From NCBI GenBank assembly GCA_017472255.1, contig JAFUQU010000014.1:124001-188000 (forward strand): DNA of 64,000 nucleotides. Direction: 5' to 3'. Origin of the DNA: Clostridia bacterium (GTDB taxonomy: Bacteria; Bacillota; Clostridia; Oscillospirales; CAG-272). Made by a program: the position numbers and the translations under genes. The notes under the pieces were generated by a model. It worked only from the letters and a program-made list of their open reading frames with translations, did not search any database and was not told the DNA's origin. Shown here in pieces: positions 7,952-11,688 of the stretch (position 1 is the first letter of the stretch; the number at the start of each line of letters is the position of its first letter).

Positions 7952-10027
7952 ATGGACAAGATCAACACCAAAAGTATTCGTAACGTCTGCCTGATGGGTC
8001 ATGGTGGCAGCGGTAAGACCTCGCTTTGCGAGGCGATGCTGTACCTTGCCAAGGTAACTGACCGTCTGGGCAAGACTCCTGAGGGAAACACCGTGAGCGA
8101 CTACGATCCCGAGGAGATCAGAAGAGGATTCTCTCTCTCCGCTTCCGTTGCGCCGCTGAACTGGAAGGATAGCAAGATCAACATCATCGACGCCCCCGGC
8201 TATCTGGATTTCCAGGGCGAGGTGCTGGAGAGCATCCGCGTGGCCGACAGCGCGCTGATCGTTGTGGACGGTCGGAACGGCGTTGAGGTCGGTACCGAGC
8301 TGGCTTGGGACTATGCCGAGAAGGAAGGCATCCCGAAGGCTTTCTTTATCAACCGCTTTGACGACGGCGAAGCCCGCTTCAAGAGGGTGTTCGATGCCCT
8401 GCGCGATAAGTTTGGCGTCACCGTCTGCCCGCTGCTGATTCCCATGATCGAGGGCGACAAGGTTATCGGCTTCCTGAACCTGATTGACATGAAGGCCGAG
8501 GTTTACGACAAGACCGGCGCGAACATGGAGTCCGAAATTCCCGAGGAATTCAAGGAAGTCGCGGCTGAATACCGCAATATGCTGTACGAGTCCATCGCAC
8601 AGACCAGCGACGATCTGATGGATAAGTTCTTCAACGAAGAACCCATTACATATAATGAAGCCATGAACGCCGTTCACGACGGCATCATCCGCGGTGAGAT
8701 CGTGCCCGTATTCTGCGGCTCGGCTACCAAGATGTGGGGCGTTACTGCAGTGCTCGATACCATCGACCACTCCTTCCCCCGTCCCACCGCACGTAAAACT
8801 GAGACAATCATCACTCCCGATGGCGAGGATGAAATGCCCATCGATCCCGAAGGCGAAACTTCGATTTTCGTCTTCAAGACGGTCGCCGACCCCTTCGTGG
8901 GCAAGATGTCCTTCTTCAAGGTCATGAACGGCGAGCTGAAGCGGGATATGTCCCTGCGCAACACCGCCAACGGCAGCGTGGAAAAGATGGCGCACATCTA
9001 CACCATCCGCGGCAAGAAGCAGACCGAGGTTGACGCGCTCTGCTGCGGCGACATCGGCATGACCGCCAAGCTGAACGCGGTTTACACGGGCAATACCCTG
9101 ACCGCGTCTGCCAAGGATATCAAATACCGCGGCATCGACTTCCCCGAGCCTTTCCTGACCCAGGCAATCAGACCGCTGGCCAAGGGCGATGAGGACAAGA
9201 TTTCGTCGGGTATTTCCAAGCTGCTGGAGGAAGATCTGACTACCCGTTACGAGAATAACGCCGAGACCAAGCAGCTGCTGATCTCGGGTATCGGCGATAT
9301 GCATCTGGACGTGCTGGTTGCCAAGCTGAAAAACCGCTTCGGCACGTCGGTTGTGCTGGAAAAGCCGAAGATCGCTTACCGCGAGACCATCAAGAAGACC
9401 GTCGAAGCCGAAGGCAAGCATAAGAAGCAGTCGGGCGGTCACGGTCAGTACGGTCATGTTCGCATCAAGTTCGCACCCGGCGAGGCTGATGGCCTGACCT
9501 TCACCGAAAGCGTGGTAGGCGGCGCTGTACCGAAGGGATTCTTCCCGGCGGTTGAAAAGGGCTTGCAGGAGGCTATGCAGAAGGGCGTTCTGGCCGGTTA
9601 TCCGGTGGTTAATCTGGCGGCTGATCTGTACGATGGCTCGTATCACGATGTGGACTCCTCGGAAATGTCCTTCAAGATGGCGGCAAGTCTGGCATACAAG
9701 GATGGTCTCCCCAGAGCGAACCCCGTGCTGCTGGAGCCGGTTGGCACGCTGAACTGCATCGTGCCGGACGGCATGGTGGGTGACGTGATCGGCGACCTGA
9801 ACAAGCGCCGCGGACGTGTGCTCGGCATGGAAGCCGTACACGGCAAGAAGGGTTACACCTGCGTGCAGGCAGAGGTTCCGAAGGCTGAAATGATGGATTA
9901 TCCCATCGCACTGCGCGCTACCACCCAGGGACGCGGCAGCTTCACCTTCTATTTCGAGCGCTACGAGGAGGTTCCCGCCAACGTGGCTCAGAAGATCATC
10001 GACGACGCCAAGAAGGCGCAGGCATAA
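7952..10027 (+). CDS. Elongation factor G paralogue (EF-G-like GTPase)
   Basis: A 691-residue five-domain translational GTPase of the EF-G-like subfamily found beside the essential FusA in many Firmicutes. G1 is GHGGSGKT (residues 16-23). The G3 motif is DAPGYLDF (80-87), with Tyr84 where canonical factors have the catalytic His (DxPGH), and G4 is NRFD (134-137) instead of NKxD. Domain IV retains GGHGQYGHVRI and DGSYHDVDSSEM, and domain V GDVIGDLNKRRGRV. No str-operon partners (rpsL, rpsG, tuf) surround it, consistent with a paralogue. Promoter and terminator make it monocistronic. Its role is unknown; it may act in a slow or specialised translocation, recycling or rescue step. Tyr for His appears to be typical of the subfamily. 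Confidence 0.9.
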   Translation: MDKINTKSIRNVCLMGHGGSGKTSLCEAMLYLAKVTDRLGKTPEGNTVSDYDPEEIRRGFSLSASVAPLNWKDSKINIIDAPGYLDFQGEVLESIRVADSALIVVDGRNGVEVGTELAWDYAEKEGIPKAFFINRFDDGEARFKRVFDALRDKFGVTVCPLLIPMIEGDKVIGFLNLIDMKAEVYDKTGANMESEIPEEFKEVAAEYRNMLYESIAQTSDDLMDKFFNEEPITYNEAMNAVHDGIIRGEIVPVFCGSATKMWGVTAVLDTIDHSFPRPTARKTETIITPDGEDEMPIDPEGETSIFVFKTVADPFVGKMSFFKVMNGELKRDMSLRNTANGSVEKMAHIYTIRGKKQTEVDALCCGDIGMTAKLNAVYTGNTLTASAKDIKYRGIDFPEPFLTQAIRPLAKGDEDKISSGISKLLEEDLTTRYENNAETKQLLISGIGDMHLDVLVAKLKNRFGTSVVLEKPKIAYRETIKKTVEAEGKHKKQSGGHGQYGHVRIKFAPGEADGLTFTESVVGGAVPKGFFPAVEKGLQEAMQKGVLAGYPVVNLAADLYDGSYHDVDSSEMSFKMAASLAYKDGLPRANPVLLEPVGTLNCIVPDGMVGDVIGDLNKRRGRVLGMEAVHGKKGYTCVQAEVPKAEMMDYPIALRATTQGRGSFTFYFERYEEVPANVAQKIIDDAKKAQA

Positions 10028-10039
10028 AAGAACAGAAAT

Positions 10040-10063
10040 CGGGGTCTCCGCAAGGAGACCCCG
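10040..10063 (+). terminator. Terminator of the EF-G paralogue
   Basis: Ten-base-pair stem CGGGGTCTCC/GGAGACCCCG with GCAA tetraloop, followed by AAAAATTTT. Confidence 0.85.
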
Positions 10064-10151
10064 AAAAATTTTACAAATCGATTAACCAAAGTCGCTCCGG
10101 CGGTACTATATGAATGAACAGACAAAATCACAGAAAAGTGAGGAGCACAGC

Positions 10152-11654
10152 ATGGAACGTGAAAAGGCTGCGGCGCTGGCGGCGGAGAACATGAAGACAA
10201 TCTTTGCCTGGTCGCTGGCGCGGGTGAGGCACCGGGAGGACGCCGAGGATCTGGCGGGAGACATTATCGCCGCGATTTTGGAAAGTGCGCCCCGCCTTCG
10301 GGATGAGGACGCCTTTTTCGGCTATATCTGGGCAATCGCGTCCAACCGCTATAAGAAGTTCCTGCGGAGCCGTTCACAAGCCGTCTGCGCGCCGCTGGAC
10401 GACAATTTGCCCGATGACGGGGAAGAACTCGTTCAGCGTCTGATTGATGGCGAGGAGCTGCACAGGCTGCGCTGTGAGCTGTCCCTGCTGTCGAGGGAAT
10501 ACCGCGAGTGCACCGTGGCTTATTACATCGACGGCAAGTCCTGCGCCGAGGTTTCGCGGACGATGGGAATCTCGCTGGAAATGGTGAAATACTATCTGTT
10601 CAAAACGCGTAAGCTGCTTAAGGAGGGCTTTGGAATGGAAAGAGAATTCGGAGAAAAAAGCTATCGTCCCGCGAAGTTTGAATTTGTCACGATTTTCAGC
10701 GGACGCTACAACGCGGAATACCGCAGCCTGTTCAACCGCTGCCTGCCGGGGAACATTCTGCTGTCGGCCTATCATACGCCAATGACGGTGCGGGAGCTGT
10801 CCATTGAGCTGGGTGTGGCGTCGGCGTATATGGAGGATGAGGTGGCGCTGCTGGAGAAATATCGGCTGTTGACGCCGGTTGCCGGCGGGCGCTGGCAGAC
10901 CAGTCTGGTGATCTTCACACAGGCGTTTACCGAGGAATTTTATCGCACGGCGGAGAAATTCGCGGTGAGCGAGGTGGGGGAGATTCTGCACCGCACGCGG
11001 GAGAAGCTGCCGCAGCTTCGGCAGATCGGTTTCATCGGGCGGGATATCGACGGCAGCCGTATGCTGTGGGCGCTGCTTTGGCTGCTGATGCACACCGCCA
11101 GCTGCCGTCAGGAAAGCGTGTTCGAGAACGACAGGATTTACGACGGCGCTGCCGGCACCAACTATGGTATCGACTACGATGAATATAACGGCGAATACAG
11201 CTGTTCCGCCTTCGCCGGATACGCGGGCATGGGGAACGACTGCCGGTGGGCGGCATCCTTCGCCGACTTCGGTGTGCTGCCGGAGAAGAACCGCTATTCC
11301 AACCAGTGGGCGCGGGTAAAAGCGGCGTCGGAAAGCGGCGAATATCTGGCGCTGACTTCCGCCCAGCGCGACGCGGTGATATCGCTGCTGGCGTTGGAGA
11401 TCGAGGCCATGCAACTGCTGTATGGTCGGCTATCCGAATGCGCATCGGCGCTGATGAAGGTACACGCGCCGAAGGCAGTGACCGGGCAGGTGGACAGCAT
11501 TGTCAGTCGGACGATTTTCTTCCGGACGGCGGGGCTGATGGGAGTCTGCGCGGTTCGTTCGGGTGAGCTGGCGCTGCCGGAGGACGAGCGCCCGGCGGCG
11601 ATCTATCTGTATGAGTGTATGCAGGAAACAGGGATAAAGGATAAAAAGGTATGA
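10152..11654 (+). CDS. ECF-type sigma factor with a long C-terminal extension
   Basis: A 500-residue protein. The first 165 residues form an ECF sigma factor: a region-2-like helix set (NMKTIFAWSLARVRHREDAE ... YIWAIASNRYKKFL) and a region-4 helix-turn-helix (LSREYRECTVAYYIDGKS ... GISLEMVKYYLFKTRKLL). The remaining 335 residues are not in ordinary ECF factors. They include a probable winged helix (MTVRELSIELGVASAYMEDE) and a mixed alpha/beta region that I cannot name. The ATG at 10152, 6 bases after AGGAG, is preferred to an in-frame ATG at 10110 without a clear ribosome site. No anti-sigma gene is adjacent, so the extension may itself sense a signal or restrain the sigma domains. Target promoters are not evident. 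Confidence 0.8.
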   Translation: MEREKAAALAAENMKTIFAWSLARVRHREDAEDLAGDIIAAILESAPRLRDEDAFFGYIWAIASNRYKKFLRSRSQAVCAPLDDNLPDDGEELVQRLIDGEELHRLRCELSLLSREYRECTVAYYIDGKSCAEVSRTMGISLEMVKYYLFKTRKLLKEGFGMEREFGEKSYRPAKFEFVTIFSGRYNAEYRSLFNRCLPGNILLSAYHTPMTVRELSIELGVASAYMEDEVALLEKYRLLTPVAGGRWQTSLVIFTQAFTEEFYRTAEKFAVSEVGEILHRTREKLPQLRQIGFIGRDIDGSRMLWALLWLLMHTASCRQESVFENDRIYDGAAGTNYGIDYDEYNGEYSCSAFAGYAGMGNDCRWAASFADFGVLPEKNRYSNQWARVKAASESGEYLALTSAQRDAVISLLALEIEAMQLLYGRLSECASALMKVHAPKAVTGQVDSIVSRTIFFRTAGLMGVCAVRSGELALPEDERPAAIYLYECMQETGIKDKKV

Positions 11655-11658
11655 AAAA

Positions 11659-11688
11659 GGAGTTGCCGCACGAAAGCGCGGCAGCTCC
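11659..11688 (-). terminator. Terminator between convergent genes
   Basis: Hairpin with 11-bp arms (11659-11669 and 11678-11688, one G-T wobble). Read on the minus strand it is followed by TTTTTCAT and ends the Nudix/membrane-protein operon; on the plus strand it lies 4 bases after the sigma factor stop but has a poorer T-tract. Confidence 0.8.

Follow-up and report, generated by a model that had tools for sequence, protein, structure and literature searches.

The window gene and its product

Positions 10152-11654 on the + strand of the window, i.e. the entire 64,000 nt stretch of clostridial DNA that was analysed, encode an ECF sigma factor of 500 residues. It consists of region 2, region 4 and a C-terminal extension of 335 residues. 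The open frame itself is longer (10110-11654, 514 aa). However, ATG 10152 is likely the better start than ATG 10110, because the latter falls within the -10 region of the promoter described below (10082-10110). A ribosome site, GAGGAG (10140-10145), is located ahead of ATG 10152.

Above the Pfam cut-offs the protein matches Sigma70_r2 (E 2.7e-6) and Sigma70_r4 models (best E 2.4e-8) and nothing else, and TIGR02937 scores over its cut-off as well. It is an ECF (group IV) sigma factor with regions 2 and 4 and neither region 1.1 nor a region 3 between them. The structure was predicted using AlphaFold2 (mean pLDDT 81.4, 49 sequences in the alignment). In agreement with the Pfam matches, region 2 comprises residues 3-77 (10158-10382, +) and region 4 residues 89-161 (10416-10634, +), such that both lie within the first 165 residues as the earlier note had placed them. 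The extension begins at about residue 165.

The first structured part of the extension is a predicted winged helix (winged helix 1, residues 183-255, 10698-10916, +) with helices at 197-205, 213-220 and 224-236 followed by strands at 240-255, and a pLDDT of ~87-96 per ten residues. Its helix-turn-helix (10782-10841) contains MTVRELSIELGVASAYMEDE, residues 211-230, which the earlier note had already read as a second helix-turn-helix. VIA-align 2 relates this domain to an ArsR-type protein (1uly; Z 10.5, rmsd 2.8 A, 76 residues) and to CzrA (6cdb; Z 10.3, rmsd 2.5 A, 86 residues). We thus regard the winged helix as real, being a high-confidence prediction, with the ArsR/SmtB type as its nearest folds. 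A PDB profile search with the extension gave nothing convincing; the best match (Ap3, E 0.0028, 45 columns) covers the winged helix.

Winged helix 1 is followed by a helical part belonging to the same module (residues 257-321, 10920-11114, +), a low-confidence stretch with poor alignment coverage (residues 323-400, 11118-11351, +; pLDDT 47-71 per ten residues) and two long C-terminal helices (residues 403-469, 11358-11558, +). The low-confidence stretch takes the position of a beta segment and a second winged helix in relatives, which are lost or degenerate in the window copy. Taken together, the Pfam matches and the model bear out the sigma factor with a 335-residue, helix-turn-helix-bearing extension claimed in the earlier note. 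Structure prediction, which that note had named as a check, shows the sigma regions together with a winged-helix extension.

Surroundings and upstream region

The sigma gene follows a gene (7952-10027) whose product we take, by sequence type, to be an EF-G-like protein. Between the two a hairpin of 11 pairs is found (10039-10064, no strand assigned; -24.1 kcal/mol, z -6.8) with an A/T tail. AAAAATTTT comes next on the + strand, while the formal terminator call of the scan is on the - strand. This hairpin is likely the terminator of the upstream gene. At the other end, the terminator scan and folding indicate a terminator directly after the stop codon (11659-11688, +). The sigma gene is hence monocistronic between terminator-type hairpins. 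The following gene is convergent, and neither an anti-sigma gene nor a co-transcribed partner was found beside it. A pair of exporter genes lies at 2.8-6.5 kb of the window; by eye no family-type promoter is present upstream of this pair.

We propose an autoregulatory ECF promoter at 10082-10110 (+), consisting of the -35 element TTAACC (10082-10087), a spacer of 16 nt and the -10 element TACTATA (10104-10110). The pattern TTAACC-N16-18-ACTATA has a single match in the whole genome of the window, located before the window gene. The element, its -35 identical and its -10 nearly so, also precedes the ortholog at locus L118 and the genes at L034 and L113, which form one clade with the window gene. 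The sequence TGAAC (10115-10119, +), 11 nt from the -10 element, corresponds by its fixed offset to the left half-site of a palindrome found in most relatives; the palindrome itself is incomplete here.

A second member of the family is located just left of the window (L022 6237-7886; C43:122.2-123.9 kb). It has its own promoter (CCGTTACC...CACTATATAG) with a palindrome, CAAATTCGAATTTG, inside the spacer, and its neighbours presumably are altronate-type catabolic genes.

The extension defines a family of paralogous sigma factors

The genome of the window contains eight genes with the winged-helix extension. The other seven encode 511-553 residues and are scattered over four contigs. With a profile of the extension, members were detected in 116 of the 196 genomes that belong to the same bacterial family, with up to 11 matches per genome. 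Of 398 genomes sampled from the phylum, 13 contained the family. Only few candidates were scored per genome, thus copy numbers may be too low. Since the extension recurs in seven paralogues and in these 116 genomes, it is not a chance fusion. When named genomes were scanned using a single subgroup as query, 318 relatives were found. The best 80 of them stem mostly from gut and rumen Clostridia, Oscillospiraceae and Lachnospiraceae. Two are from Treponema assemblies (L178, L181), either by horizontal transfer or by a binning error. Ruminococcus albus 7 carries a member, WP_013483710.1, on plasmid pRUMAL02. Several loci (L116, L118, L121, L122, L149, L151, L193) hold two or three members of different subgroups in tandem or in a close array. 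Three members (L123 9989-11620, L187 4573-6173, L173 5281-6897) are split into two frames by apparent frameshifts, reflecting decay or assembly errors. Apart from this family, another type of ECF with different long C-terminal tails was noticed at L017 and L018 (C15:194 kb and 256 kb; frames of 893 and 860 residues).

The window protein shares 31% identity over its full length with the L118 ortholog and at most 34%, over partial alignments, with other relatives; the gene is without a close ortholog in its genus. A complete extension lacking the sigma part was not seen among 81 non-redundant frames, whose few partial extensions include contig ends and short frames.

In 67 full-length members winged helix 1 equals the sigma regions in conservation (2.56 bits/column in its best block of 20 columns versus up to 2.47 in sigma blocks), and the rest is less conserved. 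Most members possess an extension of two modules, each a winged helix plus helices. A relative from subgroup A (L116 7660-9246) was modelled with a mean pLDDT of 86.2 and values mostly >90 in the extension. Its model has winged helix 1 at 171-241, helices at 248-315, a beta segment at 334-371, winged helix 2 at 377-436 and further helices at 437-502. Comparing both halves of the extension by profile gave a probability of 96%, carried by the wing, the next strand and the first helix thereafter. This profile match marks both modules as internal repeats.

In the window protein most of winged helix 2 is missing. The same applies to five of the 89 alignment rows, which comprise 87 representatives, one reference and a second copy of the window protein. 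Two of the five are the window protein itself. As the remaining three come from short or split frames, the window gene stands out as a natural variant with one module that has lost the second. The earlier note had considered a winged-helix extension instead of a SnoaL domain. This part holds, as there is neither a SnoaL domain nor an adjoining anti-sigma gene, but the outlier status of this copy through loss of the second module had gone unnoticed, as had the promoter and the palindrome.

Conserved neighbours were considered as a guide to function and dismissed. No gene recurs reliably beside the family in 80 loci, and the slight enrichment of ABC exporters (13 of 402 genes within three genes of a member versus 5 of 497 at distances of four to ten) is too weak, except in the case of two operons with the promoter described below. 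A phage origin was rejected as well, since 62 candidate stretches from viral contigs included no relative. PADLOC gave no defence match. PHROGs matches were limited to families of sigma factors and other transcription regulators, besides one family without a known function.

A promoter and a palindrome upstream of the family genes

By eye the -35 element reads CCTATCC in subgroup A, CCCAATG in subgroup B and GAACC, CAACC or TTAACC elsewhere, followed by a spacer of ~15-17 nt and the -10 element CACTATA, GACTATA or GTCTATA. At 11 nt, counted from the initial base of the -10 element, the motif TG[TA]AA is found, which mostly forms the left half of a perfect, loop-free palindrome (e.g. TGTAATCATGATTACA, TGTAAATGCATTTACA, TGAAAGCTTTCA, TGAAACATGTTTCA). 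The usual geometry of ECF promoters puts this half-site at the start of the transcript.

These observations were evaluated with 87 representatives sharing <70% identity, which lean to the subgroup used as query in the scan of named genomes. The -35/-10 pattern is present upstream of 69 of the 87 versus 24 of 578 other genes (shuffles 5.4). The full composite, in which [TC]G[AT]A follows 11 nt on, occurs in 48 of 87 and in none of the 578 other genes of the same loci (shuffles: 0.1 on average and 2 at most); it was composed after viewing the sequences, and T at the first -10 position was admitted because of the window gene. Perfect palindromes of at least 12 nt are found in 39 of the 87 upstream regions (6.55 expected) and of at least 14 nt in 18 (1.7 expected). 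A separate promoter pattern was matched by 66 of the 87 genes; of the 21 that failed it many, though not all, show a similar element by eye. Among these 66 genes with a promoter, 36 have a palindrome of at least 10 nt, 33 of which are centred 16-20 nt from the -10 element. A function of the palindrome as RNA hairpin was discarded, as such hairpins are hardly stable (-1.7 and 0 kcal/mol).

In the genomes searched, the promoter is nearly confined to the sigma genes

The distribution of the promoter was analysed in whole genomes. CCTATCC-N14-18-CACT has one site in the genome of the window, located before the subgroup A paralogue. CCTATCC-N14-18-CACTNTAA occurs once each, at the sigma gene, in nine of ten subgroup A genomes of the bacterial family. 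Overall it is found in 10 of 14 genomes, the site in the tenth (G289) not being identified as a sigma promoter. A relaxed search of eight genomes with up to three mismatches returned one self site each plus 7 others, compared to 10 for the reversed pattern. With the spacer set off to 16 instead of 15 there were 8 sites versus 8 reversed and no self site. For TTAACC-N16-18-ACTATA a set of six genomes gave five sites (control 6), and three of these precede genes of the window clade. Apart from the paralogue and the window gene, no other site for these two promoter types exists in the genome of the window. The commonest palindrome has matches in 8 of 10 genomes, all at the sigma gene, with one extra site inside a gene.

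A promoter profile run over 1.17 Mb of the relatives' loci gave 42 sites upstream of sigma genes and another six sites. Of the latter, two precede sigma genes with a frame that was called too short or too late (L169, L177), two are at background level and two precede exporters, totalling 44 sigma genes and two export-pump operons adjoining a sigma gene. The exporter sites score 20.9 bits (L195) and 18.3 bits (L139) with a reversed control maximum of 10.9, and the palindrome is absent from both. The exporters (L139 11790-15274, L195 1-2060) are near-identical ABC exporters, which lie in opposite arrangements beside diverged subgroup A sigma genes. The impression is that the pump arrived together with its promoter. 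A pair of similar sites, in the sister genomes L223 and L241, was rejected as a target since it points away from the likely neighbouring gene. Hence, in the genomes searched the promoter is found only before the sigma gene itself, apart from the two export-pump operons.

Covariation of the palindrome with protein domains

Differences between palindromes were compared to differences between protein domains in 71 members with a palindrome of at least 10 nt. After accounting for the rest of the protein the partial r is -0.16 for winged helix 1, 0.18 for region 4 (p 0.002) and 0.16 for winged helix 2 (p 0.016); with related sequences as its input, this comparison is weak in either direction. Covariation thus went against winged helix 1 as reader of the palindrome. 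On the other hand, the alignments pair a constant winged helix with a constant half-site, which makes binding by the protein's own winged helix attractive. Likewise, the joint loss of winged helix 2 and the palindrome in the window gene would fit a winged helix 2 that reads the centre. This link is no rule, though, as subgroup B keeps the full-length extension and is mostly without a palindrome.

Relation to known ECF groups

According to PMC8999054, the extensions of ECF41 and ECF42 act on and control the sigma part. The extension of ECF41 contains a SnoaL-like domain, and the long one of ECF42 is essential for activity. ECF41 and other SnoaL-tailed factors (SigJ, SigG1) resemble the window family in having regions 2 and 4, a C-terminal regulatory extension and no anti-sigma gene. 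They differ by the SnoaL-like domain, where the window family has ~335-370 residues with one or two winged helices. A SnoaL match was found neither in the window protein nor among the 21 families matched by 51 proteins. By this feature the window family is not ECF41, ECF56, ECF205, ECF294 or ECF295. A long C-terminal extension is shared with ECF42 as well, but there it is made of TPR repeats (about 200 residues) and here of winged helices; among the matches listed for the window protein and 51 relatives there is no TPR. ECF238 (CorE) has a cysteine-rich, metal-binding extension. In contrast, the 45 best conserved columns of 67 members contain no cysteine, and the window family is not cysteine-tailed.

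The predicted fold of winged helix 1 is that of ArsR/SmtB repressors (CzrA, CadC), here fused to a sigma factor. The operators of these repressors lie near the transcription start, as presumably do the palindromes of the window family. At the level of sequence the Pfam profile HTH_5 matched 1 of 51 relatives when E values up to 0.01 were admitted. The tandem winged helices at the C-terminus of SelB, a protein of unrelated function, match a two-module relative weakly in Foldseek (E 0.12 or worse).

That the family equals a published group, ECF262 (Casas-Pastor 2021), whose architecture would then be already filed though unexplained, is less likely than not. The model protein of this group comes from R. 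albus and has a regulatory extension of unknown mechanism (PMC8999054, Table 2), and R. albus 7 carries a member of the window family, WP_013483710.1. Among open-access titles and abstract openings we found no description of a winged-helix ECF extension or of a self-only ECF promoter. What is new here is the self-addressed promoter with the palindrome upstream; the large family of sigma factors from gut bacteria looks undescribed.

Proposed mechanism and alternatives

Based on this analysis we slightly favour a one-component, self-transcribing ECF sigma factor, in which the extension replaces the anti-sigma factor and the TGWAA half-site or palindrome is an operator limiting the loop. Regions 2 and 4 would guide RNA polymerase to the promoter before their own gene, such that the protein drives its own synthesis. 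The extension, ancestrally of two modules and here of one, would keep the sigma part inactive or poised until a cytoplasmic signal frees it from this hold. Its placement is analogous to that in ECF41 and ECF42, for which control by the extension is described in PMC8999054.

The half-site or palindrome, located at the presumed start of the sigma transcript, would act as operator restraining the loop. It looks like a feedback operator because it is tied to the sigma gene and not to the two other targets. For the same reason, a dimer of the protein's own winged helix would be its likeliest occupant. Repression is to be expected, since a protein bound there would collide with the polymerase. The covariation result, the lone half-site of the window gene and the 21 of 87 genes outside the promoter pattern speak against this reading. 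The near-absence of other targets is odd for a sigma factor, and degenerate target promoters may have been missed.

Alternatively, the protein could be an ordinary ECF with a sizeable regulon of weaker promoters, whose ligand-sensing extension contacts regions 2 and 4 and blocks RNA polymerase binding in an ECF41-like manner, with the palindrome being minor. The action of ECF41 and ECF42 extensions on the sigma part, as given in PMC8999054, and the promoter at two export-pump operons adjoining a sigma gene argue for it. Yet the relaxed search of eight genomes yielded fewer non-self sites than its reversed control (7 versus 10 at up to three mismatches), and for two promoter types nothing was found elsewhere in the genome of the window. 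We consider this reading a minor possibility.

An operator bound by a separate repressor encoded elsewhere, e.g. of the LacI type, to which each self-transcribing sigma gene is slaved, appears unlikely. Several palindromes (TGAAACATGTTTCA, TGTAACCGGTTACA, GAAAGCGCTTTC) resemble LacI-type operators, and palindrome and winged helix 1 do not covary. However, its central dinucleotide varies (AT, GC, CG), the half-site keeps its spacing to the sigma promoter constant across very remote members even where it stands alone, no repressor gene is consistently adjacent, and in ten genomes the commonest palindrome is restricted to the sigma gene bar one intragenic site. Still less probable is a decaying paralogue without function in the case of the window copy. 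Despite the loss of winged helix 2 and of the right arm of the palindrome and the missing close ortholog in its genus, the gene exhibits an intact frame of 500 residues with a good ribosome site, terminators and a well-formed promoter, and the sigma regions and winged helix 1 of its product are intact.

Returning to the self-transcribing sigma factor, a rather doubtful extension of this reading is that the entire family works as closed loops, one polypeptide being sigma factor, sensor and repressor binding its own operator, with a private promoter and palindrome for each paralogue. If true, a cell would contain up to a dozen insulated, self-addressed switches, having an outside target only where an export pump acquired the promoter. 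Among alternative sigma factors the ECF type forms the largest family, and its branch with extensions is poorly understood. Should our reading hold, sigma factor, sensor and feedback operator are combined in one gene and multiplied as private, apparently insulated copies. The control of orphan ECFs without anti-sigma factors would then become directly testable, and the family would provide compact promoter-sigma pairs for anaerobes.
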